A DNA stretch of 64,000 nt from Styela clava (lineage: Eukaryota > Chordata > Ascidiacea > Stolidobranchia > Styelidae), in assembly GCF_964204865.1 (NCBI RefSeq), contig NC_135255.1, forward strand, positions 21,977,135-22,041,134. The letters are read 5' to 3'. The notes below the pieces were generated by a model. It was not told where the DNA came from. It saw only the letters and a list, made by a program, of their open reading frames with translations, and ran no database searches. Positions 1 through 57,137 of this stretch are shown piece by piece. Within the stretch, counting starts at the first letter, position 1; each line of letters opens with the position of its first letter. The translations under genes were made by a program, and so were the position numbers.

Positions 1-335
1 TGTAACAGGTTGGATGCTTGCAGGATTTGTTGAACGTATTCCATTTTCAAATTTCCTACTCCTTTATACATGAATTCTATACATTGGGAAATCCCATTCT
101 GATCGACATCCTTCATATTGATAAAACCATCACGAGATTCCTTCATTTTGCTCGTAAACATCGCTTTAAAGTATCCTGATGAGGCTGCCAAGACACAGCG
201 ATGAGCACGAAAGGATTTGTCACCAACTTTGACATCAAAATCGCAGAGAATGTTTTGTTCTCTCAAGCTATCGAGTGATGTCATAAGCAAACCGGCTTGG
301 GTTGAATTTGTTTGTTTAATGTAATCTTCATTCAT
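1..335 (-). CDS. Copy A: 5' part of exon 1 of BTB-BACK-(DTC) gene, cut by window edge
   Basis: The first 111 codons of the array gene read leftward from an ATG at 335 (start MNEDYIKQTN) and run off the window. They cover a BTB/POZ domain: the FDV segment, the AHRCVLAASSGYF block with its conserved His, and the helical C-terminal part. BTB domains dimerise and, in BTB-BACK proteins, usually contact Cullin-3. The sequence is nearly identical to the starts of copies B (16943) and C (32551). The start is chosen because the upstream in-frame ATG of copy B is absent here and in C. The remaining exons lie outside the window, so integrity of this copy is unknown. Confidence 0.85.
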   Translation of the reverse strand, partial: MNEDYIKQTNSTQAGLLMTSLDSLREQNILCDFDVKVGDKSFRAHRCVLAASSGYFKAMFTSKMKESRDGFINMKDVDQNGISQCIEFMYKGVGNLKMEYVQQILQASNLL

Positions 336-1743
336 GATCAGTCAGCTCAATCTTACTCAGATCAGTAACTAAATATAACAAATTAACAATCCTAACACCT
401 GCATAAAGATAATACATTTTGTTAACGGCTGTGGTTAATCTTCCAAATCAAAACTACATTTTATTATTGAACATACTAGATGAATTGCTCATGTCAGCAT
501 ATTACTTTACAGTTGGTGGTCTGAATTCCTAGAGAAATTAACAAATGAGAAATCTCGCCATAACAAACATGTGACCTCCGAGTTGTTATTATTATTTCCA
601 ACAATGGCTATGAACCCAGAATGTTCAATTGCTTAGAAACTGCCTGTGGTTGCGTACAACTTTCCCATCAGGACTTTTTACGCAATATAACATGATAGAT
701 TTGAATAGTCTTCCCAAGCTATATTATGTATCATGAAAGCGGAAATGGTCACCAACTCAGTCCTCTGAACAATATAAGTCTGCAATTACGGTACATTCAT
801 TATTGCGACTGAAGAAAATGCCATTCCATTTTCTCCAGTCACAACAATTATATTGTTTTAAAGTCTCTGGAATGGCATTTCCTCAAAATCTTTATAACTA
901 GAAAACACAGATCTTTTTTGCAATAAATAAGTAAGGATTGCTATCTATAAGCCACTTGTCTTAACACAAAATATTGGATTCAACTGGTTCATCGAAGGTC
1001 AACAAAATTTGGCTATACTACCGGTACTATTTGTCACATTATAAGTATAATTTTATTTCGACTCCATTTAATACTGTAATAGGCAATAAAATGATTAATA
1101 AAAACAAACGTATGAACATACTCTGCTAATACTCCGCATTATCTTAGAGTCAGTCGCATAAGCTGATAACGGTATTCCAACCGAACTGCCATCGCCCAAC
1201 ATACTGATCGAATAACAATATAACTGCATTCATTACTCAGTTTCAAATGCAGCATAGCGCAGTGTTGCAAAAATCTCAACATTTGCAACAGTCTGATTCT
1301 GACCTTTCACTCCAACTCCCGGTGTAAGTTGCCAAGTCGAGTAACTTTGAATTGGCAAATAAAGACGCTGATTTTAACTGATATGCAAGGATGGAAAGTT
1401 ATGTTAATAAAAATAGGTAAAAAACATGAGTAGAGAATTTATGATCATTCAGATACAACATGTATTACCTAACGATTGGAATAAAACGTCATTGCAGTTT
1501 ATCCTGCATTAAATCTGGCATCATTGCGTCAACTTACCCCCCCCCCCGCATATTCATGACGTCATAGCTCATAGAATTGTTATAAAATCACGATCTTTAT
1601 GATGTAATAATTTCATCTCAGAGTAGTTGCTTATTTGTGCGAGCATGTTCAGCGTTAATTCGGTCATTAAGTCAGTTTCTAGGCAGAGATCAAGCCTTTT
1701 CTGTGTGAGAGAAAGTTCAGTATAAAGAAATGGATATACTGTA
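336..1743. other. 5' flank of copy A, conserved between units
   Basis: No gene is seen. The stretch aligns closely with 16944-18458 (B) and 32552-36027 (C, which has extra insertions), and more loosely with 47421-48816 (D). It must hold the promoter and any 5' UTR of the minus-strand gene, but I cannot place the transcription start. It contains an 11-C run at 1537-1547 and a palindromic CRE-like site just after it. Confidence 0.5.
1556..1565. promoter_or_regulatory. CRE/ATF-like palindrome, copy A flank
   Basis: ATGACGTCAT is a perfect 10-bp palindrome about 1.2 kb upstream of the copy A start codon. The same 10 bp occur at the matching place in units B, C (three times) and D, although D is otherwise diverged here. 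A TTATAAAA stretch lies about 20 bp to the right. Function is inferred only from conservation and motif identity. Confidence 0.4.
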
Positions 1744-3690: not shown

Positions 3691-3960
3691 TTAGTCAGTT
3701 ATTTGTTTTCGGAAGCATGGACTTGATGGTGTAGGATGTCGTAACCGACCAGCCAGTTACTTGAACCACCCTATACTGGCAGGTAATCCAGCAATCCTTT
3801 CGCACATAACTAACCCCGTGTAAGATGCGAACCCACTCATCCACGATGCGCCACACCGCCGAGCCAAGATATGTTATGGATGAGACTCATGTTTGAGTCC
3901 AGACCAAACCGCTAACCTTCGCGACTTGCGAATATTTTTGGAAAGAGGAATGCTTAATTC
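3691..3960 (-). repeat. Possible tRNA-like SINE fragment left of the hAT relic
   Basis: Read on the minus strand, the block near 3800-3880 has a GGCTCGGCGGTGTGGCGCA stretch and a GGGTTCGCATC stretch, spaced like the A and B boxes of an RNA polymerase III promoter. It is present almost unchanged at 19560-19620 in B and is partly deleted in C near 37040. A decayed SINE is the most economical reading; a functional tRNA is excluded by the poor fold. Confidence 0.35.
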
Positions 3961-10033: not shown

Positions 10034-10115
10034 TTATTGAATTCCTGCTGCCTTTAATTTCGCCTCCAATGCATCCCAAAGTTTATTCACATGGTCATCA
10101 TCAGGGTATCCATTG
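10034..10115 (-). CDS. Copy B exon 4: DTC C-terminus and stop
   Basis: The acceptor is TTTTTCAG|CAATGG. The split codon restores Asn, followed by NGYPDDDH and a helix ending KLKAAGIQ, then TAA at 10034-10036. Deltex proteins end with a matching HGYPD block and a short ELxxQG helix. The His of HGYPD is Asn here, as in all sister copies. Confidence 0.85.
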
Positions 10116-13100
10116 CTGAAAAAGATTAGATTGTATGAGAGATAATGGTAGTTGCATATGAGTCTGATTTCAATTAACTGTAAAAAATAAGATGTTCGAT
10201 AAAAGAACACTGAAAGTCACAAATATTTGACTCCTTAGTACTAAGAAACGCCTAACTTAGCAATGCCTGTGTGAGTGAGATTTGAATGTAAGGTTTAGAT
10301 GTGTAAAAAGAATGTCAAGTCAACTTTACTCGTAGGTAGAGATGAATGTCTAAAGAGGTAATTTTTTCAGGTATTTGATTTCATTGATACTGTACTAAAA
10401 TATGAAACATCAAAATCACTAAGCCCAACACCTTATCCATGGTGCAAGGGAAGGCTTCGTCGAACATTGATCATCTTAGAGTTTTGAAACCGAGTAATGC
10501 CCCAAAGTCTTATTGTCTGCTTGAACAGAGCACTCACTGATCAAACCGAAGTTGTAAAACCACCAAATAAAATATATATTCATGATGCGCGATGGCATAA
10601 TGGTTGAAGCGTTAAACTTAATTGGGTTGGCATCGCAAACTGCACAACTTTGGTTTAAATCCAATGGCCATCACCCTACCCAAAACATTGGGAGGTAATG
10701 CCGAACCAAAAAAGAAACTAGTTCTGCCAAATATTATTAGCTCCTTTAATATTGCTACATATCAGTGGAAGCTTAAACAGGGCTTTGTTCACAGCAAAAT
10801 GTGTCGATAAGCGTCGTATATATAAAACTCAAATATCTCGTTTATAATAGAATTTTAAGAATAAGCAGTGTAAGTGTAACTATAATTTATATGTTGGATG
10901 CCCAATGAAACATTGACAGCAGAGAAGCAGAAAATTTAGTCGTTACTGGAATACGGATCAAATAGTTACAAAATTGGGCAATCATAATTCCAATGACAGA
11001 TGTGACAACAGAGAAACCTAGTAAACAACAGCTGGTCGTTGAACCTGTTACAGTCACGTTGCAGACAATTCAAGCCTGAATACCATAATGGTTTATTCTG
11101 ATTGTTACTAAGAAATAACCCTCAGTCACATACACCCTAACATTTTGCAACAGCATGACAAATAATGGTCAATATTTATCAGGAATAGAAAGAACGCTTT
11201 CTGGCCATCCCTCACCCATCAACTGAAATTCGATGGATGCGGTGGTTTCTTATATATATAGCTTTGTTAAAAGTGAAAGATGTATATAAGATGTGTATAA
11301 ACAAATTCGAATGTTGCTTGAAATCAAGAGAGGAAAGTTGAGAACGTTGTACTTGATTTTACCTAGGATGAGGCATTATATATGTGGTTGAGTGGTTACA
11401 AATGTCACAAGCTGGATGGAAGGTTATGGGATCAAAATCGCAGCCCAAAGATGCCTTTCTTTGATTTATATATAAGAGTTTGCCAAATGATGTTTAGTAC
11501 AAATCATGACTTTTTGTGTGAAAGTCCGTTTATCTAACTTCGCATGGAAGGTCAGTTTGGAAAATAAATATTGCTTTGGTTGAATCTAATTTTTGCAATT
11601 CCTATTTCAAAAATCTTAAATCTCAAATTTTGTTTGAACTAATTTTTTATTACATCGATACTGGATATAACTCACTCGAGGTTCCTTTTAATCCTTATAA
11701 TAATTGTACAGATTATTCAACTAAAGAACTTACTTATCTGGACCTCCATGTTTGTTAGTCTTTTGAGGAATTTCATCATTCCATATTATCTCTCCTCTGT
11801 TGCTTCTGATTATCTGAATCTTGAAGAGCAATCCCGCATTGAGTGCCTCCTCTAGAAAGTGTATGATTCCAATGTCGGGCAAATATTCAGTGAATTTCTT
11901 TGCCTCATATGAAACACCCTGCAAAAATAAACATACCGTAACAAATTATTCAACTCCCATCCCTGATAATTTATTAAAACTGATATAAACACCAGGTTCT
12001 CCAGAAGTATGCGCACCAAGATGTCACACAACCTGAATCCTAACCGGTTAACACATACTATGTTCAGGTTGTGCGCCATCTTGGTGCGCATACTTCTGAA
12101 GGTCCAAAAGCTTTAAACTAAAATTTCTGCAACTCAGAATCGTTTCATATAAATTTAACGATTCCTCAGAAGCAGACAGTTGCAAAAGCATTTTTTTGGT
12201 GATTTTAGTTGGGATGTTTTCAAATACTCGCTCTGAACAAGGCACAAAACAAGCAGGCACTGATACGTGAATACTTCAATTGATCGATTAGAATCTTTCT
12301 CACTAAACATTGACTATCAAAACATTTGATTTCTAGGTCAGGAGGAGGGCACACATTTGAACCAAAGATGTTTTACATGTGCAAACAAGTAAAATATCCT
12401 CAGGAAACATATAATCAGTGGCACCTTGTTCAGAGTTGCCTACACATAACATTTATTAAAAAAAAGTTTTAATTTTTCAAAAAAAGAATCAAACATAATA
12501 TATCTATAATTGGGAGCAGAGTTAGAATATGATGACACTAACATATTACTGATACACAAAAAATCCACTGATATGTAAGAGGTTATTTATGAAAAACCAA
12601 AGGACCAACATTTTTTCAGGCAGAGCATTGCTTGCCAATTTAAATACCTCGTTGATGAGATCGTCGATCTAAGATTTGAAGATTAATGTGAAGAGAAGTA
12701 GCCAAACTACTTTAGCATCACAGGTTGAAAATCCTGGATTCAAGCACATTACTCAGTGCATAATGCAATAGGTAGGAGTTTATGATAAATTAGGTGGCAA
12801 TGCAACCAGGAAGATTTCAGTACTACAATAAATAGTAGTGCCTTGCGTATCAGTGGCTGCTCATACATAGCCCTGTTTGGAACAAAAGACATGACAAACG
12901 TTTCATAGAAAAAATTCATATGGTAAGTTAGTCATTTTAGGCGTTTGGAATCTTATAGTCGGACAAAACTATCAGACTTAAGATAAATTATGATGATTAT
13001 TGCCAAAATGAAATACCTAATTTACTATTTCATATAAATTCTTAAATAATATTTTTTTCCAATATTAAATATATTCTAAATTGGGCCATGCCCAACAAGA

Positions 13101-16100
13101 GTCCTTCAAAATCACTGTACAATTAGAGATGTACCGATACCACTTTTGTCACCGATACCAGCTAAAAACGCCGATACCGATACTACAAAAAGGCAGATAT
13201 TCCGATACCGATACTATGTAATTATTACTTAATTAGGTGTGCTGTGTAGGGCAGACGGGTTAAAACAATGGTCTTTGAGCGTTGTTCATAGTACACATTA
13301 TTTCAGATCGAAAAAAAAAGATATATCACATAATATGAAATTAATGTGTTTGCTTTAACTGATTAAGATACATTGTACAGTAACGCTAGTAATCTCAGTG
13401 TTCAATTAGAAAACTCATAAGCCGGGATGTCCAATTTGAATTTAATGTTAATATCGCGACCTTCGAATATCGTTATTCGTGTTTAAAAGAATATCGAATA
13501 TCACCCACACATTCTAGCGCCGCCGTCCTACGTTCAAATTAAAAGCATTTTACAAATATTTTATTTCGTGGCTAATCGTAATCGTCGAAGCAATAAGTCA
13601 AAGCCAACATGAAGGAATATCAATAATTGATTGTGTCGGAATTTAGTTTATCGGTGTCGTTAGACTAAATGACACTCGTACTTGACGACAAACAGTCAGA
13701 ATTTATACCCGTGATAAAAGTTTATGTGCCGTTAATAAGAACCCCAATTCCACTGTATGATTTAAAACTGGGCGCCTAGTTGCTTTTTGTTATGTGCTGT
13801 GTTGATATATTTCTTCATAATTACTATGTAATATTAAAAATGTCAATATAAAAATTTGACAGCGAAAATAGTTCAGCTAGTTTGGCTGATAAATAGCTAA
13901 AAACACGTGAATCCTATTCTCTCGCAGGGGTGGGGACATGTATGGCTCATAGCTCAGGATCTCTCCAGACAAAAAATAAGTAGTATTCCAACTTATCTTT
14001 TAAAACATTCTGGACCATATCAAAAAGGTAAATATATCGGGAATATCGGCCTTAATTTAACCGATACTGATAAATGGCCGATACCGAAAAAATGGCCGAT
14101 ATTGCAGATACCGATACCGATACATCTCTATGTACAATTACATATGTGGAAATTTAATTCAGTAATGCAGAATAACTGATATGAACACAGCTTGGATTGA
14201 TTTTTGCAATGTCAGATTTTAACGAAAGTCATACGATTTCCTTCAATAATCAAATGCTTCAAAAGACAAATTTTGAAATGAAAACCTCAAATCAAGAATT
14301 TGCTCTATGTAATATAAACAATTGTGAATATATTCATTTATTTTGGACATCAGCACTGGTAGAGGTAAATCCTGCAAGGGGCCATTAAACCAACATAAAA
14401 AACTGCTTTCTGGAAACATCGGAAAAAATTTCTAGAACATCTAAGCACTAAGGTGTTGTGATGGCCTTGTGGTTATAGCATTGGACTTAGCTATGTTGGA
14501 TCATAATTTGAAGGTCTCAAGTCCCATGCCCACTGCCTTATCCAAGATGTAATAACTTGAGTAGGCAATTCCGAAACGAAAAATTATAGTCCACAAATAG
14601 CAGCTTCTTATGCATTAGCGGTTACTTATGCAGGGCCCTGTTTAAAGTGAACAATGTAATAACGAAAAGTGTAATTAGGATTCAATTGCTATTTGGGGGC
14701 AGGAAAATTGTATTTGGAATATTCAATGTTAAACATACAATCGATATATATTAATACAACAAGAATCCTGGTTCCAGTAAATACATAATTTAATATTCAA
14801 CCAACTGAATTCATTACATGACTCACATTCAGACTTCCAGCAGGGAATGAGTAGGAGATGACAGAAGTGTTCCACCCTCCATATCCTGGCAGTGATTCAT
14901 CCAACCTTTCCACTGTCATTCTTCCACCAGGTGGTTGCTGGTTGATGATTCTTAGACCAGATGAAGTAGCTTGACTTGAAGACTGAGATTCTGTAAATTG
15001 GAAAATTATTTCAGTTTATGTAAATTAGCATAAGATTCAGGTATTCGTTTAAAATAAAAAGTGGGGAAGGCTGATAATTATAATTATTCATAAAGTAGAG
15101 AGAAACTTTTTTATCGTTCTCAGTTCACGAGCAAAATAACAATATCTGGGATGTCAATAGCATAACAACCAGTCAAAGTTTAAATCAGGTAATACATTAT
15201 TAAAAATGGGAAACCATGAGAAAGGCGCTCATTCATAGCCTGTCAGAGCTCATTACAGGTATTACACATAATTACTTGAGGCCTAGTTTGGAACAGAACA
15301 GTTGGGAACAGCTACACACTTATTGAATCACTATGTAGCAATATTTATTCCAAGGGCTGGAAAGAATAATGGAAGGGATAATGGAATAATGGAAAGTGGT
15401 TAATAATGATGTTAATTCTCCAAAATGAATGGTTCAGAATTATAAATCAACAACTAGACATGAACAACTTAACAGTATTAGTGCTCAGTGCTCACTTTAT
15501 CGAACTCAGCTAAGCAGGGGCATGTCAAATGTTTATGCTGCCCCCCTAGAGACGTGCCCAGCAGCTAAGAAACACAAAAGAGATTGTACCTGAAGTGTCA
15601 CTCCTGTATCCACCCACTGCTTCCATCTTTGGCTCTTGTACATTCATAGATCCGTGACTACTTGATGCAGTGTTGCCCAAGGAAGTTTCTGTATCTGCTT
15701 TAGTACTTGGAACAGTGAAAGATGCTTTCTGAGCTGCCTGATCTGTGGACTTTTCATCAGCTCGAGAAAATATTTCATCAACAAGTAGATCGTAACATTT
15801 ACGAGAATCGTTGACCAAAGTTTCTGAGCGAATGGTTTGTTTGAGAAATTGCAGGGGGAATTTTCCGAGATCGAGAAGGCTAAACAGTTCATGAAAATGT
15901 TTTTTCCTTTTCTGAATATCTTGTTTAATCCATCTAAGAGTTCCATGCCATTTAACAGTCTCGGAAGAATATTTTGTGTTTGGGGATTTGTAAATCCTTA
16001 TGATCTCATCTTTGCTGATATCACAAAACTCTTTTTTCTCAATGACTTGTTCGAAAGTTGCTTCCAGAAATCGATTCATCACATCTTTCACAGCATTTGA

Positions 16101-16943
16101 GTTTGTAACTCGATGAGTTTCAGCCAGATTCTTCAGGATGAAGCAGTTGTCAATCTCAAGATTTGTCTCAAGATTCTTGACATCAGAGAATAATGCAGTG
16201 ATGATTGAATTCTTCGCAATATCATTACTTTTCACCAATGGTTCTTCCAATACAGTCTCCAGAAGAAATTTGAAAGGATAAGTCTGGATATTGATGACTG
16301 TAACAAGATCGGCAAAACATCTCTCTGCATCTTCATCTTTTGCTCTTGCCCATGTCATCATAGCTTGCCATGATGTTTGATAACTCACATTTGAAACTTT
16401 TATGTAACGCATGAGATCTGGCTTGATAATGAATGGGAACATCTCAGAGGAAATTACTGATTTGAAATTAGTGATCAAAACCTGTTCTGCTTGCTCTTTT
16501 ATATCATGGCGATCGTATGCTTGAGCCAAGTTGATGACAGAAAGGCAATTGGTCGAAGAGACATGGGTTTTCAAGTAATGAAAGCAAAAGTTAGTCAAGC
16601 CAACCATTTGTAACAGGTTGGATGCTTGCAGGATTTGTTGAACGTATTCCATTTTCAAATTTCCTACTCCTTTATACATGAATTCTATACATTGGGAAAT
16701 CTCATTCTGATCGACATCCTTCATATTGATAAAACCGTCACGAGATTCCTTCATTTTGCTCGTAAACATGGCTTTAAAGTATCCTGATGAGGCTGCCAAG
16801 ACACAGCGATGAGCACGAAAGGATTTGTCACCAACTTTGACATCAAAATCACAGAGAATGTTTTGTTCTCTCAAGTTATCGAGTGATGTCATAAGCAAAC
16901 CGGCTTGGGTTGAATTTGTTTGTTTAATGTAATCTTCATTCAT
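10034..16943 (-). CDS. Copy B: complete BTB-BACK-BACK-DTC protein, four exons, 594 aa
   Basis: Join 16943..15590, 14990..14827, 11918..11734, 10115..10034. Every junction has GT/AG sites and phases agree (1, 0, 2), giving one open frame to a TAA. Residues about 21-125 are BTB; 130-250 BACK; 262-392 a second BACK-like repeat; 393-465 a Ser/Thr-rich linker; 466-594 a Deltex C-terminal (DTC)-like domain with NQQPPGG, LPGY, SYSFPAG, IIWND and NGYPD landmarks. No RING and no Kelch repeats are seen. BTB-BACK proteins normally recruit Cullin-3; DTC domains belong to Deltex ubiquitin ligases and bind ADP-ribose or NAD. The fusion suggests a substrate adaptor in ubiquitylation, but this is inferred. 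The start at 16943 is preferred over an ATG two codons upstream (16949) because copies A and C lack the latter. Intron 2 carries a 1-kb hAT and SINEs. Confidence 0.85.
10580..10825 (+). repeat. tRNA-derived SINE, copy 3' of the gene B body (intron 3)
   Basis: The head GATGGCATAATGGTTGAAG resembles an A box, and TTTGGTTTAAATCC, about 45 bp on, resembles a B box. A tRNA-unrelated body follows, ending in CAGTGGAAGCTTAAACAGG and GCTTTGTTCACAGC. The same insertion is in intron 3 of copies C, D and E (57336-57575), so it predates the array. It is a transposable repeat, not a working tRNA. Confidence 0.65.
11384..11465 (+). repeat. tRNA-like head (SINE fragment), intron 3 of B
   Basis: GTGGTTGAGTGGTTACAAATG, followed by GGTTATGGGATCAAAAT, has the spacing of pol III A and B boxes but no full cloverleaf. 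It is present in all units (near 27555, 44290 and 58115). A SINE remnant is likely. Confidence 0.35.
11734..11918 (-). CDS. Copy B exon 3: central DTC segment
   Basis: The acceptor is TTTTGCAG|GGTG and the donor GATAA|GTAAGT, a perfect consensus. The 61 codons read GVSYEAKKFTEYLPD, then AGLLFKIQII and GEIIWNDEIPQKT. These align with the YxAxxFxxxxYLPD, RLIFxIGTS and VIWNEIHHKT blocks of Deltex. The frame stays open at all four places it occurs in the window. Confidence 0.85.
11999..12101. mobile_element. Short foldback MITE, intron 2 of B
   Basis: CTCCAGAAGTATGCGCACC on the left is mirrored on the right by GGTGCGCATACTTCTGAAGG, and the inner AAGATG and ACAACCTGA motifs are also inverted. The whole element is about 100 bp and nearly all stem. 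It is also in C (28408-28511) and D (45146-45236, one arm shortened) but missing from E near 60830. Confidence 0.7.
13124..14130. mobile_element. Non-autonomous hAT (1007 bp) in intron 2 of gene B
   Basis: The ends TAGAGATGTACCGATAC and the mirrored ...ATACATCTCTA are inverted repeats, with several internal ACCGATACCGATAC motifs near both ends. The flanks TGTACAAT (13116-13123 and 14131-14138) are a perfect 8-bp target duplication. Sister units read straight through at this place (CTGTACAATTACATATG), giving empty sites. No transposase frame is seen. Confidence 0.9.
14455..14655 (+). repeat. tRNA-derived SINE, intron 2 of B
   Basis: GATGGCCTTGTGGTTATAGC (A box-like) is followed by AAGGTCTCAAGTCCCATG (degenerate B box) and a body with TGAGTAGGCAATTCCGAAACG. 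It ends in the same GCAGGGCCCTGTTTAAAG type of tail as the other SINEs here. It occurs in the same place in C (29837-30050), D (46561-46790) and E (62553-62765). Confidence 0.65.
14827..14990 (-). CDS. Copy B exon 2: start of the DTC domain
   Basis: The acceptor is TTTACAG|AATC and the donor AAT|GTGAGT. The split codon with exon 1 gives Glu. The 54 following codons include NQQPPGGRM, ESLPGYGG and ISYSFPAG, matching in order the NQPxGxM, SLPGY and xYxxPxG landmarks of Deltex C-terminal domains. Sister exons exist at 30229-30392, 46958-47127 and 62935-63095. Confidence 0.8.
15590..16943 (-). CDS. Copy B exon 1: BTB, BACK and second BACK-like repeat
   Basis: The exon has 451 codons plus one base, ending CTTCAG|GTAC at 15590/15589. 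If read through the donor the frame would extend to a stop at 15546, which gives a false 'BTB-BACK only' protein. BACK1 and the second repeat align with a constant 140-residue offset: W192-x5-W198 with W332-x5-W338, P223 with P363, F226 with F366, T230 with T370, and LV 236-237 with LV 376-377. Confidence 0.9.
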
Positions 16944-17707
16944 GATCATTCAGCTCGACCTTACTCAGATCAGTAACTAAATATAACAATCCTAACACCT
17001 GCATAAAAACAATACATTTTGTTAACCTCTGTGGACCATCTTCCAAATCAAAACTACATTTTATTATTGAACATAATAGATGAATTGCTCATGTCAGCAT
17101 ATTACTTCACAGTTGGTGGTCTGAATTCCTAGAGAAATTAACAAATGAGAAATCTCGCCATAACAAACATGTGACCTCCGAGTTGTTATTATTATTTCCA
17201 ACAATGGCCATGAACCCAGAATGTTCAATTGCTTAGAAACTGCCTGTGGTTACGTACAACTCTCCCATCAGGACTTTTTACACAATATTATATGATAGAT
17301 TAGAATAGTCTTCCCAAGCTATATCATGTATCATAAAAGCGGAAATGGGGCCAATCTCCTGACCTCGAGTCCTCTGAGCAAAATAAATCTGTAATTATGG
17401 TACATTAATTATTGCGACCGAGGAAAATGCCATTCCATTTTTTCCAGTCGCAACAATTATATTGTTTAAAGTCTCTGGAATGGCATTTTCTCAAAATCTT
17501 TATAACTATAAAACACAGATAGCCTATTATAATAATAAGTATAAGTATTTTTTGCAATAAGTAAGGATTGCTATCTATAAGCCACTTCGTCTTAAAACAA
17601 AATAATGGATTCAACTGGTTCATTGAAGGTCAACAAAATTTGGCTATACTACTATTTGTCACAATATAAGTATAATTTTATTTCGACTCCATTTAATAGG
17701 CAATAAA

Positions 17708-19690: not shown

Positions 19691-20931
19691 CAGATGCGTA
19701 GCTTAGGGCGGGCAATGGGGTACATATGCCTCCGGGCGCCAAAATGGGGCTTGCAAAAATTTCACAACAATGGTAACAAAACGGTCACAAGCAAGATCGC
19801 ACCGGCGCAGACATCTAGTCTTAGTATATGTCAAACAGCACACTTGGTCAGACGACAGACCACCTACGTCGACTGCCGACGTCATCAGGCACATAGCTCG
19901 CGCACGATCAGATTTCCATCGTAATTACATGGCTAAAAAATCTCGCCGGGAAACAAAGCAAAATTTGATTTGTTAACGTTAGGTAACAAAATGCACCGGG
20001 TTAATTACGTGGTTCTGTATCGTTAAGTTCTTGCCTGCGCACTTCGATGTAAGTTGATATTAGTTCTGTGCTGGAGACAAATGGCAACGGAATTTGGTTA
20101 AATGAAGTTAATACATTATTTGAGTAATACGTGGTTTTGTATTTCGTGGTTGTCAGAGTACAGTACTTTGCGGCAGAGTTACAAAAATATTTTATAGTGT
20201 GCTGAAAGACCCCAATGCCGTTTTCGACAATTCGTCGAGATTGCACAGATTTTGTAAATTTTCGCGACACGGACATCAATGGCCACGAACTTTTCACCGA
20301 AATTGGAGATTGCAGAATGCTGCTCAGTAACAGAACTGAAGGTCAACCAGAAACTCTTTTGGCTCTTCTCGGTTTTATTGTGTCTTTTGGAGACGACGTT
20401 TTACCCAATCTGCAAATTTGTCTACAAATTTTGTTAAAAATACCAGTTTCAATTGCAAGCTGTGAACGGTCTTTCAGCAAATTGAAACTTATTTTGTCGT
20501 ATTCGCGTGCATCAATGGGACAGGATCGTCTCAGTGATCTTGCACCTCTAATTGTTGAAAAAGAAACACTGAAAAAAAAAAAAAAATTTTGATGACGTTT
20601 TAACCAGTTTGCAACAGTGAAATCAAATCAAATAAATTTATTGTAGACTATCATCTTTAACAGTAACTGAGTCGGACATTATGAACATGGTATGCTATAT
20701 TTTGTATAGCTTTGCTTCTTTTTTAAATACAATGTTCCATTGAAATTTGAATACACATATACATATATTTTAGAATAAATAATAAAATATATAAATACAT
20801 ATAAATTTGAATTTACATATATAATTTGTTTTTACATATACAAGTAAATGTAATAGAAAATATGATTAAACGTGGAGGTCGGGGCGCCAATTTTATAGTT
20901 TGCCCCGGTCGCAAAATATGCTGGCTACGCC
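19691..20931 (+). mobile_element. hAT transposon relic, unit B
   Basis: Almost identical to 3961-5201, including the loss of the extreme right terminus. This shows both descend from one insertion followed by duplication or gene conversion rather than independent insertions. Confidence 0.8.
20215..20592 (+). pseudogene. hAT transposase C-terminal fragment, unit B
   Basis: A 125-residue frame with the hAT dimerisation signature (SIASCERSFSKLKL, GQDRLSDLAPL). It differs from the unit A copy at two residues (Ile/Thr and Ser/Leu). It lacks the catalytic core, so it is a remnant. Confidence 0.75.
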
Positions 20932-25917: not shown

Positions 25918-25999
25918 TTATTTAATTCCTGCTTCCTTTAATTTCGCCTCCAATGCTGCACGAAGTTTACGCGTATTGTCATAATCAGGATATCCATTG
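25918..25999 (-). CDS. Copy C exon 4: DTC C-terminus and stop
   Basis: 82 bp from TTTTTCAG|CAATGG to TAA. It encodes NGYPDYDN and a helix ending KLKEAGIK. The NGYPD motif is kept; the following eight residues differ from B. Confidence 0.85.
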
Positions 26000-28900
26000 C
26001 TGAAAAAGATTAGATTGCATGAGAGATAATGGCAGTTGCATATGAGTCTGATTTCAATTAACTGTGAAAAAATAAGATGTTCGATAAAAGAACACTGAAA
26101 GTTACAAATATTTGACTCCATAGTACTAAGAAACGCTTAACTTAGCGATGCCTGTGTGAGTGAGATTCGAATGTAAGGTTTAGATGTGTAAAAAGGATGT
26201 CAAGTCAACTTTACTCTTAGGTAGAACTTCAAAACCCAGTAAGTCTGATTGGACAGAGCACTGATCGATGCGAAAGTGTAAAACCACCAAATAGAAAATG
26301 AATTGATTTGAGGGCAAATGGCCTAGTGCAGCGGTTCCCAAAAGGTGAGTCGCGTGTTTTCAGGTGTGCCACGAAAATTATTAGAATAACTAATATAAAA
26401 TATGATTTGATATTTTACAATTTACATATTGTCTTTATTATAAAAGTTTTATTGTTTCCTATTTAAATGCTGTGTATATGGATCAATAAATTCCATTTAG
26501 CTTGCTATGTCGTTATGTAACAATAGATATAGACACCACTTGCTGCAATTTCGTGAGATGCAATTTATTTTACCTGCTGAACTGAGTTAAGCGAACATGC
26601 AGAGATGAGGAAGAAAAGCTGGCCTTTTGCCTTCATTCCTTAGGCCTACGAGTTTACCAGCGTTAAAGGACATAAAGTACACCCTAACGATCACGATATT
26701 CACCATACTTTTCCGTGCAAGAGCGCCGCGAGCATTTTCCCTTGATAATTTGGCGCCGCTCGAACAAAAGGTTTGGGAACCGCTGGCCTAGTGGTTAAAG
26801 TGTTGGACTTAACTTGGCTGGCATCGCAATTCGCACATCTCAAGTTCAAATCCCACGAACCCCACCTCACCCAAGGTGTAAAAAATGAGTAGGCAATGCT
26901 GAACCGGAAAGATACTATTTCTTCCCTATAATAGTAGCCCTTTACATATTGCTAGATATCAGTGGAAGTTTGAACAAAGTCTTGTTTACAGCAAAATGTA
27001 TGAATAAGCATCGTATATATGAAAACCTTAGTGAAACCATAATTTATATCAAGTTGGATGCACAATGAAACGCTGACAACAGAAAAGCAAAACTTTTATT
27101 TATTACTGGAATACAGATCAATAATTACAAAATCGGGCAACCCTGATTCCAAGGTACAGTCATGTTTTAGAAAATCTAGGCCGGATACCATTGGGAATTC
27201 TGATTGTCACTAGGAAATTGCCCTCAGTCACATACACCCTAACATTTTGCAACAGCATGACAAATCATGGTCAATATTTATAAGGAATAGAGAGAACGCT
27301 TCCTGGTCATCCCTCACCCATCAACTGGAATTTGATGGACGCGATGGTTTCTTTTGGACTTTCTTCACTTAATAAACTTCCAGTGAACTTCACTTCCAGA
27401 ACTTCCAGAAAGTCCAGTTGGTGAAATGGACGCGATGGTTTCTTATATATAGCCTTGTTCATAGCGAAAGGTGTATAAAAGATGTGTATTAACGAATTTA
27501 AATGTTGCTTGAAATCAAGAGAGGAAAAGTGAGAATGTTGTACTGACGAGGCATGATATAAGTGGTTGCAAATGTCACAAACTGGATGGATGGTTATGGG
27601 ATCAAAACTGCGACCCAAACATGCCTTTCTTTGATTTATAAATAAGAGTTTGCAAAATAGTGTTTAATACAAAAACATGACTTTTTATGTGCAAGTTCAT
27701 TTTTCTAACTTTGCATGGAAGGTCAGTTTGGAAAAAAAATATTGATTTGGTTTAATTTAAGGTACTCCCGTAGTATGTGAACCAAGATGGCGGACATCGG
27801 AACACAGTATATGTATCAAGTTGGGGTTAGGCCATAATTTCAGGTACAAATACTACAGGAGTCACTTGGCTGGTCCCCGAATCGTAATCGAACTAAAACA
27901 AGGAAAATTGGAATAAAATTATGGCCTAACCCTAACCTGGTACACATACTATGTTCAGGTGTCCGCCATCTTGTTGCACATACTACGGAGCAGCGCCAAT
28001 TCATATTTTTGCAATTCACATTTTAAATCTCAAATTTGGTTGGAACTAAATTTTTAATACATCTGTCATTGATATAACTTAGTTGAGGCCCCAGTCAATC
28101 CTCATCACAATTGTGCAAATTTTAAAATATTTAATCAGAAAACTTACTTATCTGGACCTCCAAGTTTGTTAGTCTTATGAGGAATTTTATCATTCCATAT
28201 TATCTCTCCTCTGCTGCTTCTAATTATCTGAATTTTGAAGAGCAATCCTGCATTGAATGCTTTCTGGAGCAAGGGTATGATCCCGAAGTAGGGCAAATAT
28301 TCAGTGAATTCCTTTGCCTCATATGAAACACCCTGCAAAAATAAACATAATGAGTTATTAAACTTTTATCTCTGATAATTTATCAAAACTGATATAAACA
28401 CCAGGTGCTCCAGAAGTATGCGCACCAAGATGTCGCACAACCTGCATCCTAACCGATACACACATACTATGTTCAGGTTGTGCGCCATCTTGGTGCGCAT
28501 ACTCCTGAAGGTCCAAAAGCTTTAAACTAAAATTTCTGCAACTCAGAATCAATTCCTCAGAAGCAGACAGTTGCAAAAGCATTTTTTTGGTGATTTTAGT
28601 TGGGATGTTTTCAAATACTCGCTCTGAACAAGGCACAAAACAAGCATGCACTGATACGTTAATTGAACGATTGAAATCTTTCTCACTAAACATTGACTAT
28701 CAAAACATTTGATTTCTAGGTCAGGAGGAGGGCACACATTTGAACCAAAGATGTTTTACATGTGCAAACAAGTAAAATATCCTCAGAAAACATATAATCA
28801 GTGGCACCTTGTTCAGAGTTGCCTTCACATAACATTTATTAAAAAGAGTTTTAATTTTTCAAAAAAGAAATGAAACATAATATATCTATGATTGGAAGCA

Positions 28901-31900
28901 GAGTTAGAATATGATGACACTAACATATTTCTGATACACAAAAAATCCACTGATATGTAAGAGGTTATTTATAAAAAAAAACAAAGGACCAACATTTTTC
29001 CAAGCAGAGCATTGCTTGCCAATTTATATACATCGTTGGTGAGATCGTCGATCTGGGATTTGAAGATTAATGTGAAGAGAAGTAGCCAAACTATATTGGC
29101 ATCACAGGTTAAAAATCTTGGATTCAAGCACATTACCCAGTGTATAATGAAATAGGTAGGAGTGTAAGATAAATTAGGTGGCAATGCAACTAGACAGATT
29201 TCAGTACTACAATAAATTGTAGTGCCTTGTGTATTAGTGACTGCTCATACATAGCCTTGTTTGGAACAAAAGACATAACAAACGCTTCATAGAAAAAATT
29301 CATATGGTAAGTTTGTCATTTTAGGCGTTTGGAATCTTATAGTCGGACAAAACTATCAGACTTAAGATAGATTATGATGATTATTGCCAAAATGAAATAC
29401 CTAATTTACTATTTCATATAAATTCTTTAATAATATTTTTTTCCAATATTAAATATATTTTAAATTGGGCCATGTCCAACAAGAGTCTGTGAAAATCACT
29501 GTACAATTACATATGTGGAAATTTAATTCAGTAATGCAGAATAACTGATATAAACACAGCTTGGATTGATTTTTGCAATTTGCAATGTTAGATTTTAAAG
29601 AAAGTCGTACGATTTTCTTCAATAATCAAATGCTTTAAAAGACAAATTTTGAAATGAAAACCTCAAATCGAGAATTTGCTCTATGTAATATAAATAATTG
29701 TGAATATATTCATTTATTTTGGACATCAGCACTGGTAGTTACTGGTAGAGGTAAATTCTGCAAGGGGTCATTAAACCAACATAAAAAAATGCTTTCTGGA
29801 AACATCGGAAAAATTTCTAGAACATCTAAGCACTGAGGTGTTGTGATGGCCTTGTGGTTATAGCATTGGACTTAGCTATGTTGGATCATAATTTGAAAGT
29901 CTCAAGTTCCATGCCCATTGCCTTATCCAGGATGTAATAACTAAGTAGGCAATTCCGAAACGAAAAAATAACATTCCATCAAAAAATGATAGCTTATTAT
30001 GCATTAGCGGTTGCTTGTGCAGAGGCCTGTTTAATAAAGTGAACAATATAATAACAAAAGTGTAATCAGAATTTAATTGCTATTTGGGGGTCAAAAAAAA
30101 AGGAATTTTGGAAGATTTAATGTTAAACATAGAATCAATGTAAATTAATACACCAAAAATCTGAGTTCCAGTAAATAAATAATAACATAATTTAATATTC
30201 AACCAACTGAATTCATTACATGACTCACATTCAGACTTCCAGCAGGGAATGAGTGGGTGATGACACAAGTCGACAACCCTACATATCCTGGCAGTGATTC
30301 AGGCAATACTTCCACTGACATTTCTCCACCAGGTGGTTGTTGATTGATGATTCTTAGACCAGATGAAGTAGCTTGACTTGAAGGATGAGATTCTGAAAAT
30401 TGAAACATTTTTTGATTGGAGGGGATTAGTAAGAAATATTCCAATACTGGGTTATTATTATACATAAAATAAATTGATAGGGCATATTGTAATATTTTAT
30501 AAAAAAAAATAAACAAGGGCATATTGTAATTTGTAATTTTATATAATAAATAAACGAACAACTCTTTTGTGATTTTTAAATCCACGAAATTGCTAAGCCC
30601 CCATGCCAATACTAGGCTCAAATTGGATATTATGTTTTGACTTATGCTTTTGGATTTAGGCAGTATTAAATTTTTTTATACGACGCTTAATACGCCTTCG
30701 TTCTGAACAAAGTCCTGTACAAGCAGTCACTGATATGTAAGTAACTGATAAGCCACTGATGTGTGAAAAGCTACTATTATTGGGAAGGAACAACGTTGCC
30801 TACCCAACCCATTACACCTTGGGTGTGGTGGGTGAGGTGTGGGATTTGAACCCGGAAAGGCGTAATCTGAAATGGCAACAGTTAAGCCTATTGCTTCAAC
30901 TGTTACGTCATCACCCTGTGATCCAAATATAGTATTTACTGGGTATTGGTTCATTCAGTTTTAACCTCGTTACTTAAAAAACAGAAATGAATGAATGGAG
31001 TTGAAGATGACCAATTTTCCTAATTATGCTAAATATTATACCAGTATTTATTTTATCTATGGATTAAAAATTATCACAATATTGTTCAGAATTATGTAAA
31101 ACAATAAGCTAGACATGAACAATCCATAGTGAAATCAGACTCAGTGCGTACTTCAGTAATCTCAGTTACGAAACACAAATGCAAAAGATTGTACCTGAAG
31201 CGTCACTCCTGTATCCACCCACTGCTCCCATCTGTGGTTCTTGGACATTCCTAGAGCTGTGACTACTTGATGCAGTGTTGCCCAGGGAAGTTACTGAATT
31301 TGCTCTAATACTTGTAGATGTTGGTTGCTGGACTGACTGATTAGAAGATTCTGAACTCTTTCTTGCCCGAGATAATATTTCATCAAAAAGTCTATCGTAG
31401 CATTTACGAGAGTCATTGACTAAAGTTTCCGAGCGGATGGTTTCTTCCACAAATTTTAAGGGAAATTTTTTCAGGTCAAGAAGGCTGAACAGTTCATGAA
31501 AAATCTTTTTCCTTTTTTGAATATCATGCTTTATCCATCTAAGAGCTCCATGCCATTTAACAGTCTCAGAAGAATATTTTGTGTTTGGGGAGTTGTAAAT
31601 CCTTATGATGTCATCCTTGCTGATATCACAGAACTCTTTTTTCTCAATGATTTGTTCGAAATTTGATTCCAGGAATTGATTCATCACATTTTTCACAGCA
31701 TTTGGGTTGGTAACTTGATGAGTTTCAGCCATATTCTTCAGGATAAAGCAGTTGTCAATCTCAAGATTTGTCTCAAGATTCTTGACATCAGAGAATATTG
31801 CAGTGATAACTGAATTCTTTGCAATGTCATTACTTTTCACCAGTGGTTCTTCCAACACAGTATCCAGAAGAAATTTGAAAGGATAAGTCTGGATATTGAT

Positions 31901-32551
31901 GACTGTAACAAGGTCAGCAAAACATCTCTCTGCATCATCTTCATCTTTTGCTCTTGCCCATGTCATCATAGCTTGCCATGATGTTTGATAACCCACATTT
32001 GAAACTTTTATGTAACGCAGGAGATCTGGCTTGATAATGAACGGGAACATCTCAGAGGAAATTACTGATTTGAAATTAGTGATCAAAACCTGTTCTGCTT
32101 GTTCTTTTATATCATGACGATCGTACGCTTGAGCCAAATTGATGACGGAAAGACAGTTGGTCTGAGAGAGATTGGTTTTCAAGTAATGAAAGCAAAAGTT
32201 TGTCAAGCCAACCATTTGTAACAGGTTGGATGCTTGCAGGATTTGTTGAACGTATTCCATTTTCAAATTTCCTACTCCTTTATACATGAATTCTATACAT
32301 TGGGAAATCCCATTCTGATCGACATCCTTCATATTGATAAAACCATCACGAGATTCCTTCATTTTGCTCGTAAACATCGCTTTAAAGTATCCTGATGAGG
32401 CCGCCAAGACACAGCGATGAGCACGGAAGGATTTGTCACCAACTTTGACATCAAAATCACAGAGAATGTTTTGTTCTCTCAAGCTATCGAGTGAAGTCAT
32501 AAGCAAACCGGCTTGGGTTGAATTTGTTTGTTTAATGTAATCTTCATTCAT
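25918..32551 (-). CDS. Copy C: complete BTB-BACK-BACK-DTC protein, four exons, 595 aa
   Basis: Join 32551..31195, 30392..30229, 28332..28148, 25999..25918. Exon phases and splice sites match copy B exactly, and the frame is open throughout. The protein is one residue longer than B because of an extra Asp in the WARAKDEDDAERC segment of BACK1. The BTB domain is nearly identical to B. The linker after residue 393 (ARKSSESSNQ...) and several DTC loops differ strongly: EMSVEVLPESLPGYVGLS in exon 2, EYLPYFGIIPLLQKAF in exon 3, NGYPDYDNTRKLRAALEA in exon 4. The likely role is the same as B: a putative Cullin-3 adaptor with a Deltex-fold recognition module. Preserved splicing and reading frame in two diverged copies argue that the four-exon gene is real and functional. 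Confidence 0.85.
26305..27020 (+). repeat. tRNA-derived SINE in intron 3 of C, split by a hAT MITE
   Basis: The head GCAAATGGCCTAGTG is interrupted at 26328 and resumes at 26786 with GCCTAGTGGTTAAAGTG, followed by the B box-like TTCAAATCCCA and the shared SINE body and tail. Removing the insertion restores a tRNA-like A box. It is the counterpart of 10580-10825. Confidence 0.7.
26329..26785. mobile_element. hAT MITE (457 bp) inserted in a SINE, unit C only
   Basis: The ends CAGCGGTTCCCAAA and TTTGGGAACCGCTG are perfect inverted repeats of the hAT type. The flanks GCCTAGTG (26321-26328 and 26786-26793) are a perfect 8-bp target duplication. No transposase frame is present. Sister units have the empty site. 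Confidence 0.95.
27765..27990. mobile_element. Foldback MITE, intron 3 of C
   Basis: CTCCCGTAGTATGTGAACC and, inverted, GTTGCACATACTACGGAG form the ends. Inner motifs CAAGATGGCGGACA / TGTCCGCCATCTTG and GGTTAGGCCATAATTT / AAATTATGGCCTAACC are also inverted. It occurs in D (44512-44728) and E (interrupted, 58324-60415) and is absent from B at about 11580. Confidence 0.75.
28148..28332 (-). CDS. Copy C exon 3: central DTC segment
   Basis: 185 bp with TTGCAG|GGTG and GATAA|GTAAGT, as in B. It encodes GVSYEAKEFTEYLP, AGLLFKIQII and IIWNDKIPHKT. The His of PHKT is closer to the Deltex HHKT block than in copy B. Confidence 0.85.
28408..28511. mobile_element. Short foldback MITE, intron 2 of C
   Basis: Same family and site as 11999-12101: inverted GAAGTATGCGCACCAAGATG arms joined by a short loop. 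Confidence 0.7.
29837..30050 (+). repeat. tRNA-derived SINE, intron 2 of C
   Basis: Counterpart of 14455-14655 with the GATGGCCTTGTGGTTATAGC head and TAGGCAATTCCGAAACG body. Confidence 0.6.
30229..30392 (-). CDS. Copy C exon 2: start of the DTC domain
   Basis: The acceptor is ATTTTCAG|AATC and the donor AAT|GTGAGT, 164 bp as in B. Landmarks NQQPPGG, SLPGY and HSFPAG are retained, while the segment between LPGY and SFPAG differs from B. Confidence 0.8.
30686..30920 (-). repeat. tRNA-derived SINE in reverse orientation, intron 1 of C
   Basis: On the minus strand the head is GGTGATGACGTAACAGTTGA and the B box-like TTCCGGGTTCAAATCC, followed by GGGTAGGCAACG and a tail at CTTTGTTCAGAACG. A diverged relative lies at 63310-63440 in intron 1 of E. 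Intron 1 of B has no such insertion. Confidence 0.7.
31195..32551 (-). CDS. Copy C exon 1: BTB, BACK and second BACK-like repeat
   Basis: 452 codons plus one base, ending GCTTCAG|GTAC. If not spliced the frame would stop at 31166 after a non-homologous tail, and that tail differs from the unspliced tail of B, as expected for intron sequence. Confidence 0.9.
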
Positions 32552-42929: not shown

Positions 42930-43020
42930 CTATTCTTTGTATTCAATTCCTGCTGCCTTTAATTTTGCCATTAATGCATCACAAATTCTTTTATAATGGC
43001 CAGGATCAGGATATCCATTG
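42930..43020 (-). pseudogene. Copy D exon 4 (DTC C-terminus), frame open
   Basis: 91 bp; encodes NGYPDPGHYKRICDALMAKL and ends AAGIEYKE before the stop. The stop is three codons later than in B and C. Confidence 0.8.
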
Positions 43021-44885: not shown

Positions 44886-45073
44886 TTATCTGGACCTCCA
44901 AGTTTGTTAGTTATATGAGGAAACTCATTATTCCATATTATCTCTCCTCTGTAGCTTCTGATTATCTTAATCTTGAAGAGCAATCCTGTATTGAATGCTT
45001 TCCGTAGCAAGTTCTTAGGGTAGGGGTTAGCAGGCACATATTCAGTGAACTTCTTTGCCTCATATGAAACACC
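44886..45073 (-). pseudogene. Copy D exon 3 (central DTC), frame open
   Basis: 188 bp with intact splice sites. It encodes GVSYEAKKFTEYVPANPYPK, then TGLLFKIKII and IIWNNEFPHIT. The loop after EYVP is one residue longer than in B and C. Confidence 0.8.
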
Positions 45074-46957: not shown

Positions 46958-47127
46958 ATTCAGACTTCCAGCAGGGAATGAGTAAGTGATGGCATAAGTG
47001 CCCATCACCCATAATTCATATCCTGGCAGTGATTCCCTCAACCTTTCCACTGACATGCTTCCACCAGGTGGTTGTTGGTTGATGATTATCAGACCAGATG
47101 AAGTAGCTTGACTTGAAGACTGAGATT
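46958..47127 (-). pseudogene. Copy D exon 2 (DTC start), frame open
   Basis: 170 bp, two codons longer than B, with acceptor TTTACAG|AATC and donor AAT|GTGAGC. Landmarks NQQPPGG, SLPGYE and TYSFPAG are retained; the extra codons fall between LPGY and YSFPAG. Confidence 0.75.
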
Positions 47128-47420
47128 CTGTAAATTGAAAATTATTTTAGTAAAAGATGATCACAAGACATGATTCTGATTACGCTTAATATAAAATGAT
47201 AGGGCATTTTGTAAGCCAGAGATTCCTTCATTTTTCTTGTAAACATCGCTTTGAAGTATCCTGACGAGGCTGCCAAGACACAGCGATGAGCACAGAAGGA
47301 TTTGTCACCAACTTTCACATCGAAATCGCAGAGAATGTTTTGTTCTCTCAAGCTATCGAGTGATGTCATAAGCAAACCAGCTTGGGTTGAATTTGTTTGT
47401 TTAATGTAATCTTCATTCAT

Positions 47421-49010
47421 GATCAGTCAGCTCAACCTTACTCAGATCAGTAAGTAGGATTAACAATTCTGATGCATGCATAAAAATAATACATTTTGTT
47501 AACATTCGAAGTATATGACTATGAGTATAAGATAGTGATAGATTGGAATAGTCTACCCATGCTATATCATAGTTCCCACCTCAGATAATATATATCACGT
47601 TTTATTGCAGGTCAATTACAATACAAGACTTCTAAACATACAATATAAATATTGCGGCCGGTAAAAGTGAAATTGCATTTTCTGGAAATCTTCAGTTTCA
47701 TAGCTAAATAGTGAGCTGTGCTGCAATAAGTGGGGATTCCCATAACTACTTCTCAAAAACAAAATAATGAATTAACAAAAAGTTTCTTTGCTAATATCTG
47801 AATATAGTACCGTAATAGTAAAGAGATCAGTAAGTCCAGAAGTCTGTAAGTTCATTCTGTCATTGGAAGTCAACAAAATTTAAATTTGGCTCGACTATTA
47901 TAAGTTTATTTCGATTTTATGAATGAACATCGTAGGCTATATAAGTATAAGTTTATTTTGCCTATAATCAGAATAACAATAAAAGGATTGATAAAAATAA
48001 ATAAATAAAAACTGATTATGAAATCAGAAGAGCAAACATAACATTAGATAAGGTTTAAAACGTATAGAATATAAGATGAAAGATTTTGCCAAGAAGTGTT
48101 ACGTGTTCACTCACCTAAAATTATTTTACACACGTACCGTACCGGTACCGGTACCCACCGACCCCCCCACACACAACCACAGAGAAATTAACAATCACAG
48201 TGACCGGTACCCGGACCGTACTCTGCTGATACACCGCATTAACTTATATTCAGTTGCATAGACTGATAAAGGATATTTCCACTGAACCGCATTCGCCCAA
48301 CATATTGGTTGAATTACAATATAATTGCATTCATTACTCAGTTTCTAATGCAGCATAGCGCAGTTGTGCAAAATCTTAACATTTGCAACAGTGTAACTCT
48401 GACCTTTCACCTCCACTGTTCGTGTAAGTTGCCAAGCCGAGAGGCTTTAAACTGACAATGAAAACGCTGATTTCAACTGATACTCATCTAATAGGCATGG
48501 TTGGAAAGTTGTTTTAAATCAAAGAAGTAAAAAAAAAATGAGTGAAGAAATGACGCACCCTGATATTACGTAACAATTCGGATAAAAAGTCATTGCTTGT
48601 CTGTTTCGAATTACATCTGGCAACTTTGCTTTCAATCAAAAATTGTGCATATTTATGACGTCATAAATAAAATGTTATGGGATTTATCATTATGATATAA
48701 TAATTTCTCCCCGAAGTATTTGCTAATCTATGCGAGCATGCCAGCATTGACCTGCTTCGAGGCAAAGATCAAGCATTTTCTGTGTGGAAGACAGTTCAGT
48801 ATAAAGTATTGGATATGGATGTGGTGTTGCGCTCTTTCTGTGGAATATTCAAATGGCAAAGGATCGCGGTCTTGAATTACTATGCATTGGATCATTTATT
48901 TTCTACAAGCCTACTAAAAGTCAGGAACGCTGGGGCACATAAGCACAGGTCAGTGTAAGATAGAACTTCTTGCTATTCATTATGCGGGGTTGTTGAACCG
49001 GATAAGACTT
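47421..49010. other. 5' flank of copy D, the most diverged version
   Basis: Patchy alignment with the A-C flanks: the segments around 48230-48460 and 48650-48960 align, the rest is rearranged. It contains an ACCGGTACC-rich, C-rich tract at 48130-48225. It lacks the TA MITE present in A-C: GGATATGGATGTGGTG at 48811-48826 is the empty site. The CRE-like palindrome is kept. Confidence 0.5.
48655..48664. promoter_or_regulatory. CRE/ATF-like palindrome, copy D flank
   Basis: ATGACGTCAT lies 1.24 kb upstream of the D start codon, at the same relative place as in A and B although the surrounding sequence is well diverged. Confidence 0.4.
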
Positions 49011-57052: not shown

Positions 57053-57137
57053 TTAGTATTCTATTCCTGCTGCATTTAATTTCGCCTCCAATGCATCACA
57101 AAGTTTACGCTCATGGTCATCATCAGGATATCCATTG
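57053..57137 (-). CDS. Copy E exon 4: DTC C-terminus and stop
   Basis: 85 bp from TTTTTCAG|CAATGG; encodes NGYPDDDHERKLCDALEAKL, ending NAAGIEY before TAA, one codon longer than B. Confidence 0.75.

Follow-up and report, generated by a model that had tools for sequence, protein, structure and literature searches.

A tandemly arrayed BTB-BACK-BACK-DTC gene family of Styela clava whose Deltex-type tail lacks the catalytic residues and is shared with kinase and ZU5-like genes

The window analysed here, a stretch of 64,000 nucleotides from the genome of the ascidian Styela clava (C6:21977135-22041134), contains on its minus strand a gene (copy A, 16949-10034) encoding a BTB domain and two BACK domains followed by a Deltex C-terminal (DTC) domain. 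In other members of two tandem arrays, IRE1-like kinase modules and weakly ZU5-like modules are followed by the same set of DTC exons, and the DTC is the diversifying part of these proteins; both findings go beyond the original prediction, which had been made from the letters of the window. Both catalytic residues of the Deltex ligases are replaced in all 55 array-type DTC tails tallied. As best explanation, with a probability of roughly 0.55, we propose a CUL3-type adaptor in which the diversifying and catalytically dead DTC serves as the target-binding module, the DTC being a cassette common to several conserved effectors.

Gene model and domain composition of copy A

Copy A consists of four exons that are connected by GT/AG junctions, with intron phases of 1, 0 and 2, into a single open frame of 596 residues starting from the ATG at 16949. 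A second ATG at 16943 gives the product of 594 residues (595 codons including the stop) deduced originally, and the three junctions drawn there (15590/14990, 14827/11918 and 11734/10115) are indeed in phase. The features of copy A are as follows.

15590..16949, minus strand: exon 1, BTB and two BACK domains, residues 1-453 (Pfam BTB, BACK twice)
16563..16883, minus strand: BTB domain, residues 23-129 (Pfam)
16746..16754, minus strand: M66-K67-E68, aligned with M-S-E / F-S-E of KLHL3/KLHL11 (alignment)
15831..16133, minus strand: second BACK domain, residues 273-373 (Pfam; KLHL3 BACK aligned at 291-392)
14827..14990, minus strand: exon 2, first of the three DTC exons (entry phase 1)
14863..14922, minus strand: DTC hypervariable stretch 1, residues 477-496
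11734..11918, minus strand: exon 3, second DTC exon
11847..11876, minus strand: DTC hypervariable stretch 2, variable in length, residues 523-532
11766..11768, minus strand: P559 at the position of the catalytic histidine His582 of DTX2 (alignment; role from excerpts of PMC7615817)
10034..10115, minus strand: exon 4, last DTC exon with stop
10070..10072, minus strand: A585 at the position of the catalytic glutamate Glu608 of DTX2 (alignment; role from excerpts of PMC7615817)

As anticipated, the joined product is matched by the Pfam profiles of BTB (PF00651, 4.5e-26, residues 23-129), BACK (PF07707, 3.9e-22, in two stretches) and DTC (PF18102, 4.5e-15, residues 472-589; 56.4 bits, the cut-off being 25). 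The Deltex identity of the tail, originally read from short landmarks, is corroborated by PDB matches of the DTC part alone, with human DTX3L (3pg6, 5.9e-12) ranking before DTX2 (2.9e-5) and DTX1 (0.0021). No RING appeared among the Pfam matches of copy A with E-values up to 10, no MATH profile was found by Pfam in the copy A protein, and a Kelch profile is likewise lacking in P0001. This database protein, 596 residues long, is identical to copy A over its full length and constitutes an independent gene model, not a proof of transcription. The gene model is not a product of chance because it recurs intact at 32551-25918 (copy B), in line with the expected repetition in another copy, and because the identical full-length P0001 exists; together with the open joined frame and the Pfam domains this rules out a chance open reading frame or a mis-spliced model. 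A search for the combined architecture revealed BTB and/or BACK plus DTC in 41 of 85 database proteins (a hand count of gene models, not transcripts).

The BTB-BACK part matches KLHL3 and KLHL11 in the alignment, and M66-K67-E68 occupies the place of what we take to be the phi-X-E Cullin-3 motif; across 33 members this column contains M or L at phi in 33/33 and E in 32/33. The original interpretation is borne out in part: the architecture is real, and the lack of a RING profile and the kept position of the presumptive Cullin-3 motif agree with it, CUL3 recruitment itself being putative. A carry-over of ADP-ribose or ubiquitin chemistry from Deltex is not supported. The suggested replacement of Kelch by the DTC fits the presence of exon 1 relatives on C14 which encode BTB-BACK-BACK-Kelch proteins (P0057: two BACK stretches, Kelch repeats, 37% identity), and it is on this basis reasonable to assume that the DTC took the place of Kelch.

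Arrays, lost catalytic residues and exchange of the DTC tail

The window is part of an array on C6 (21.70-22.55 Mb) with at least 28 first and at least 27 second DTC exons, collinear with at least 16 BTB-BACK-BACK, at least 6 kinase and at least 6 ZU5-like modules, the counts being lower bounds obtained by scoring the best candidates under an E-value limit for each search. According to a hand-read map, an N-terminal module lies directly upstream of 25 of the 28 first DTC exons, and the three without one include copy C of the window. The elements of the array are all encoded on the minus strand up to 22.05 Mb, and those beyond 22.27 Mb all lie on the plus strand; the two opposite arms resemble a large inverted duplication. 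On C5 (2.6-4.8 Mb), at least 29 BTB, at least 14 kinase and at least 44 first-DTC-exon matches were counted by hand, and divergent members are dispersed on C9 (L021, 49% identity), C8 (L022, 40%) and at C6:18.69 Mb (L023, 45%). The kinase module is well supported in database models (Pkinase 5.9e-42 in P0058 and 4.4e-41 in P0073); its best PDB match is IRE1 (4.2e-24), and the motifs A[VI]K, HRD and DFG are kept in 17/17 models. The ZU5 match is weak and remains under the Pfam cut-off (0.023-0.053; P0064 0.053), and comparison of this module with the PDB gave nothing convincing.

For the catalytic residues, His582 and Glu608 of DTX2 were placed on the alignments of the DTX proteins by counting back from the chain end, presuming a DTX2 length of 622 residues, and the DTX3L columns were used for the tally. 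It comprises 55 array-type DTCs, namely 18 BTB and 9 kinase proteins of the C6 type, 16 BTB and 7 kinase proteins of the C5 type and five of the ZU5-like group, two of these being models that lack the ZU5-like part; four other rows were aligned and left untallied. According to excerpts of PMC7615817, the catalytic pair of DTX2 for ADP-ribose ubiquitylation consists of His582 and Glu608, and the equivalent H707 and E733 of DTX3L are described as strictly conserved in the available sections of PMC10810221. An additional pocket residue, Tyr719 in DTX3L and His594 in DTX2, is reported in the accessible part of PMC11460948, where His594 matters for the interaction of DTX2 with ADP-ribose and where the exchanges H707A, Y719A and E733A abolish or impair the ubiquitination of single-stranded DNA by DTX3L. 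In the array-type DTCs the His582 position is occupied by P (51), S (3) or L (1) and the Glu608 position by A (53), V (1) or I (1), neither residue being kept in a single one of the 55, while the His594/Tyr719 position carries N in 53 of them and H and D in one each. The HPNPG loop is absent from the array-type sequences printed in the alignment, and the landmarks LPG, YLP, WN and GYPD are retained there. The Styela Deltexes L001 and L003 keep both His582 and Glu608. An active Deltex ligase or ADP-ribose ubiquitylation is made unlikely by the replacement of both catalytic residues in 55/55.

In a tree of 67 DTC rows the fusion DTCs are split from the canonical Deltexes with a support of 100/99; L023, being too short, and L022 were left out, the bootstrap is unsettled and some long branches meet. 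The Deltex-like L002 (C1:11.087 Mb) stands on the canonical side and has P and T in place of His582 and Glu608; an upstream CPMC stretch looks, by eye, like the end of a RING. L002 may resemble the donor of the array DTC. Further relationships emerge from a tree of the 55 rows, whose members were labelled as C6 or C5 type by contig where given and otherwise by N-terminal likeness, P0069 from a C10-sized contig being grouped with the C6 type. A branch with 100/100 support separates the DTCs of the C6 type, whether they belong to BTB, kinase or ZU5-like proteins, from those of the C5 type, which belong to BTB or kinase proteins, and the tree requires one change of the array label and 11 changes of the module label. 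Forcing the 34 BTB-DTCs together against the 16 kinase-DTCs, a comparison in which array labels are unused, costs 209 log-likelihood units (p-AU 5.5e-9), by which a single origin of all BTB-DTC tails without exchange is rejected. The grouping of the DTCs follows the type of array and not the kind of N-terminal module. The topology of the tree and the rejected BTB-DTC clade therefore imply that tails were exchanged or homogenised between effector types within each array type after the two had split.

Selection, competing explanations and a proposed mechanism

Omega was calculated from pairwise Nei-Gojobori counts with codon bootstrap, not from a site model, and may be distorted by exchange between copies; copies were hand-picked from the match lists before their sequences were compared, and one C6 and two C5 exon 3 stretches without the search motif were dropped. 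Purifying selection acts on the BTB-BACK and kinase exons, whose omega values range from 0.19 to 0.29: exon 1 yielded 0.19 on C6 (0.14-0.25, n=14 of 16, one of them up to its stop only) and 0.28 on C5 (0.22-0.36, n=8 of 29), and the kinase exons, serving as control, 0.20 on C5 (n=8 of 14) and 0.29 on C6 (n=5 of 6). The corresponding values for DTC exon 2 are 1.21 on C6 (0.79-1.86, n=19 of 28) and 2.39 on C5 (1.29-4.54, n=12 of 44), those for DTC exon 3 0.51 on C6 (0.33-0.78, n=18 of 27) and 1.19 on C5 (0.59-2.55, n=10 of 12 fetched). Restriction to the BTB units of C6 gave 1.30 for exon 2 (0.79-2.17, n=13) and 0.52 for exon 3 (n=12). Fisher tests of extra amino-acid states versus extra synonymous codons, DTC exon against exon 1, resulted in p-values of 1.0e-7 (exon 2) and 9.4e-5 (exon 3) for C6 and of 1.8e-6 and 9.1e-4, respectively, for C5. 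The variable columns of the two arrays correlate in exon 2 (Spearman 0.48; 0 of 49 circular shifts as high) and in exon 3 (0.36; 0/61), and invariant columns persist in the DTC. Among the copies A-D of the window the mean divergence amounts to 0.117, 0.133 and 0.175 in exons 2, 3 and 4 and to 0.093, 0.057 and 0.110 in the non-coding start of intron 2, end of intron 3 and post-stop DNA, two other intron stretches (0.181 and 0.240) being driven by seemingly misaligned pairs. In these copies the DTC tail therefore changes at roughly the pace of the neighbouring non-coding DNA or faster, with the effector modules conserved.

Several observations weigh against an adaptor with a selected, target-binding DTC. 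The omega interval lies above 1 for C5 exon 2 only and includes 1 for C6 exon 2; the value for C6 exon 3 is as low as 0.51 and that for C5 exon 3 spans 1; and, as mentioned, all of these are pairwise counts. The column correlation alone is not specific for the DTC because the variability of exon 1 is correlated between the arrays as well (Spearman 0.18; 0/386 shifts as high), and the catalytic loss is not specific for the fusions because L002 shows it, too. In-frame stops interrupt 2 of the 16 BTB and 1 of the 6 kinase matches of the C6 array, the database models P0013, P0018, P0020, P0021 and P0024 have an incomplete DTC, and in window copy C the homology of exon 1 stops after about residue 69 despite open DTC exons. 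Part of this would also be expected if the tail were weakly constrained, a mere spacer or stability tail drifting via birth, death and gene conversion of copies, to which the bootstrap of C6 exon 2, the evident exchange between copies and the broken copy C lend some credit. We nevertheless regard such drift as unlikely in view of the omega of C5 exon 2 with its interval above 1, the remaining invariant columns, the correlation of variable columns between arrays and the divergence of the DTC exons of copies A-D which, where introns align, matches or exceeds that of the flanking non-coding DNA. It is still more improbable that the DTC has remained a non-catalytic reader of ADP-ribose, NAD+ or single-stranded nucleic acid through which the fusions recruit CUL3 or a kinase to ADP-ribosylated proteins. 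The good DTC profile match and the four landmarks kept in the printed rows would suit such a reader, but the His582, Glu608 and His594/Tyr719 positions are altered as tallied above, the HPNPG loop is missing from the same rows, and the available sections of PMC11460948 attach ADP-ribose interaction or activity on single-stranded DNA to exactly these residues.

Two further readings carry little weight. The BTB exon could remain mainly unspliced and provide a BTB-BACK-BACK protein without DTC, as its frame stays open for 14 codons beyond the donor (an open reading frame of 467 residues) and several database models are devoid of a full DTC; this appears very improbable given the 41 of 85 database gene models that combine both parts, the junctions conserved between copies A and B and the DTC exons open in copies C and D. 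Recognition of self/non-self or of gametes instead of defence is suggested by general knowledge, since hypervariable tandem families arise there too, but the BTB-BACK and IRE1-like kinase modules would point to cytosolic proteins, and we give this alternative only the slightest chance.

For the CUL3-type adaptor we propose the following scenario. The BTB and BACK domains would dimerise and hold Cullin-3, and the C-terminal DTC, its Deltex active site lost, would bind the target. As an exchangeable three-exon cassette entered in phase 1, the DTC also ends the IRE1-like kinases of both arrays and the weakly ZU5-like proteins of one, and the sister genes would bring an IRE1-like kinase to similar targets. 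Since DTC tails occur on both adaptors and kinases, recognition surfaces of one kin could be linked either to ubiquitylation or to phosphorylation. The effector modules would remain constant while the DTC surface diversifies, probably via selection and exchange among copies. The likeliest use would be the recognition of fast-changing partners, e.g. intracellular microbe or parasite proteins. More tentatively, and with doubts prevailing, the family might constitute an intracellular repertoire in which one hypervariable, non-catalytic DTC is swapped among CUL3 adaptor, IRE1-like kinase and ZU5-like effectors, i.e. an animal defence or recognition system of an undescribed kind. If true, a new specificity would pass from one effector to another via exon exchange. 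To our knowledge, this would be the first case of a Deltex fold used as a diversifying recognition domain, and also the first of such a domain being common to kinases and ubiquitin-ligase adaptors within the same arrays. Nature would thereby have set up an experiment on which partners the DTC fold can bind after losing its chemistry.

Further copies, side features and relationship to known systems

The repeats of the window are spaced by about 14-17.5 kb. Copy B is intact, copy C is broken in exon 1, and copy D has its DTC exons inside the window with the nearest upstream BTB exon outside (C6:22046186-22047604); a fifth exon 1 is truncated by the left edge of the window.

31195..32551, minus strand: copy B exon 1
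30229..30392, minus strand: copy B DTC exon 2
28148..28332, minus strand: copy B DTC exon 3
25918..25999, minus strand: copy B DTC exon 4 and stop
47219..47425, minus strand: copy C exon 1, broken after about residue 69
46958..47127, minus strand: copy C DTC exon 2, open
44886..45073, minus strand: copy C DTC exon 3, open
42940..43020, minus strand: copy C DTC exon 4
62935..63095, minus strand: copy D DTC exon 2
60573..60760, minus strand: copy D DTC exon 3
57057..57137, minus strand: copy D DTC exon 4
1..340, minus strand: 5' part of exon 1 in the adjacent copy, truncated at the window edge (full exon C6:21976129-21977475)

Two array units of the window contain the C-terminal dimerisation region of a hAT transposase on the plus strand (4485-4862, Pfam 2.1e-10, and 20215-20592), which was probably duplicated together with the units. 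Elsewhere in the C6 array, exon 1 at C6:21908942-21910300 shows 100% protein identity to copy A and that at C6:21954388-21955749 a score equal to copy B, these pairs being either very recent duplications or haplotype duplicates retained in the assembly. Two modules precede one DTC in the units C6:21862663/21864085 (BTB and ZU5-like) and C6:22350083/22360532 (kinase and ZU5-like), which makes it possible that both are joined to a single tail by alternative splicing. In a third unit there are two BTB modules, of which one contains stops. The isoforms X1 (kinase-DTC, P0060) and X2 (ZU5-like-DTC, P0064) of LOC120331568 were considered as an instance of such splicing and not used; the reading is weak because the DTC and leader sequences differ, with the DTC exons matched by eye to two units.

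Outside the big arrays, the BTB-DTC gene L023 (C6:18.69 Mb) adjoins the kinase-DTC gene L024 (18.71 Mb), possibly as the remnant of an ancestral pair, and L005 (C5:16.22 Mb) has DTC exons downstream of a stretch that resembles, by eye, the end of a BACK domain. In L022 (C8:11.70 Mb; 3646-5859, minus strand) a divergent BTB-BACK-BACK exon is followed by a long G/F/S/T-rich repeat (e.g. SGFGFGTGYSAPKSTSQ), reminiscent of FG repeats, and then by the DTC exons. Additional related kinase exon clusters are located at C10:4.06-4.38 Mb and C18:1.84-1.99 Mb.

All named DTC-bearing matches in the database searches (among 85, 71 and 99 matches) belong to Styela clava; the search depends on shared five-residue words, so that absence from other species does not follow. 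The database names of the relatives are uncharacterised, kelch-like or kinase-like, and DTX3L-like in two short models. The architecture is undescribed among the literature matches listed for Deltex with BTB, kelch or tunicate (open-licence PMC). The available part of a BTB architecture survey names BTB-ZF, BTB-BACK-kelch, T1-Kv, MATH-BTB, NPH3 and PHR and has a 'deltex' count of zero (PMC1257465), and BTB, kelch and Deltex do not occur in the available main text of the Styela plicata and Botryllus schlosseri genome papers.

With BTB-BACK-Kelch (KLHL) proteins the Styela family shares the BTB and BACK domains, apparently related to those of KLHL3/KLHL11, and the presumptive position of the Cullin-3 motif; it differs by two BACK domains and by a DTC instead of Kelch, and it is the C-terminal domain which diversifies. 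The C-terminal DTC is common to the Deltex E3 ligases (DTX1-4 and DTX3L), DTX3L being nearest among the solved structures, whereas the RING profile, the catalytic His and Glu and the HPNPG loop are lacking in the Styela protein. The kinase module of the sister genes is closest to IRE1, yet the three kinase models scanned (P0058, P0073 and P0087) have no RNase profile and a DTC tail in its place. In nematodes, MATH-BTB and F-box cullin adaptors diversify rapidly, with positive selection on the substrate-binding and not on the cullin-binding part, as stated in excerpts of PMC4334554. The Styela family appears, by analogy, to display the same kind of contrast on a different recognition fold: the expansion and the contrast between modules are clear, with an omega interval above 1 limited to C5 exon 2. 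In contrast to the nematode adaptors, the Styela arrays carry their recognition domain on kinases and ZU5-like proteins as well.

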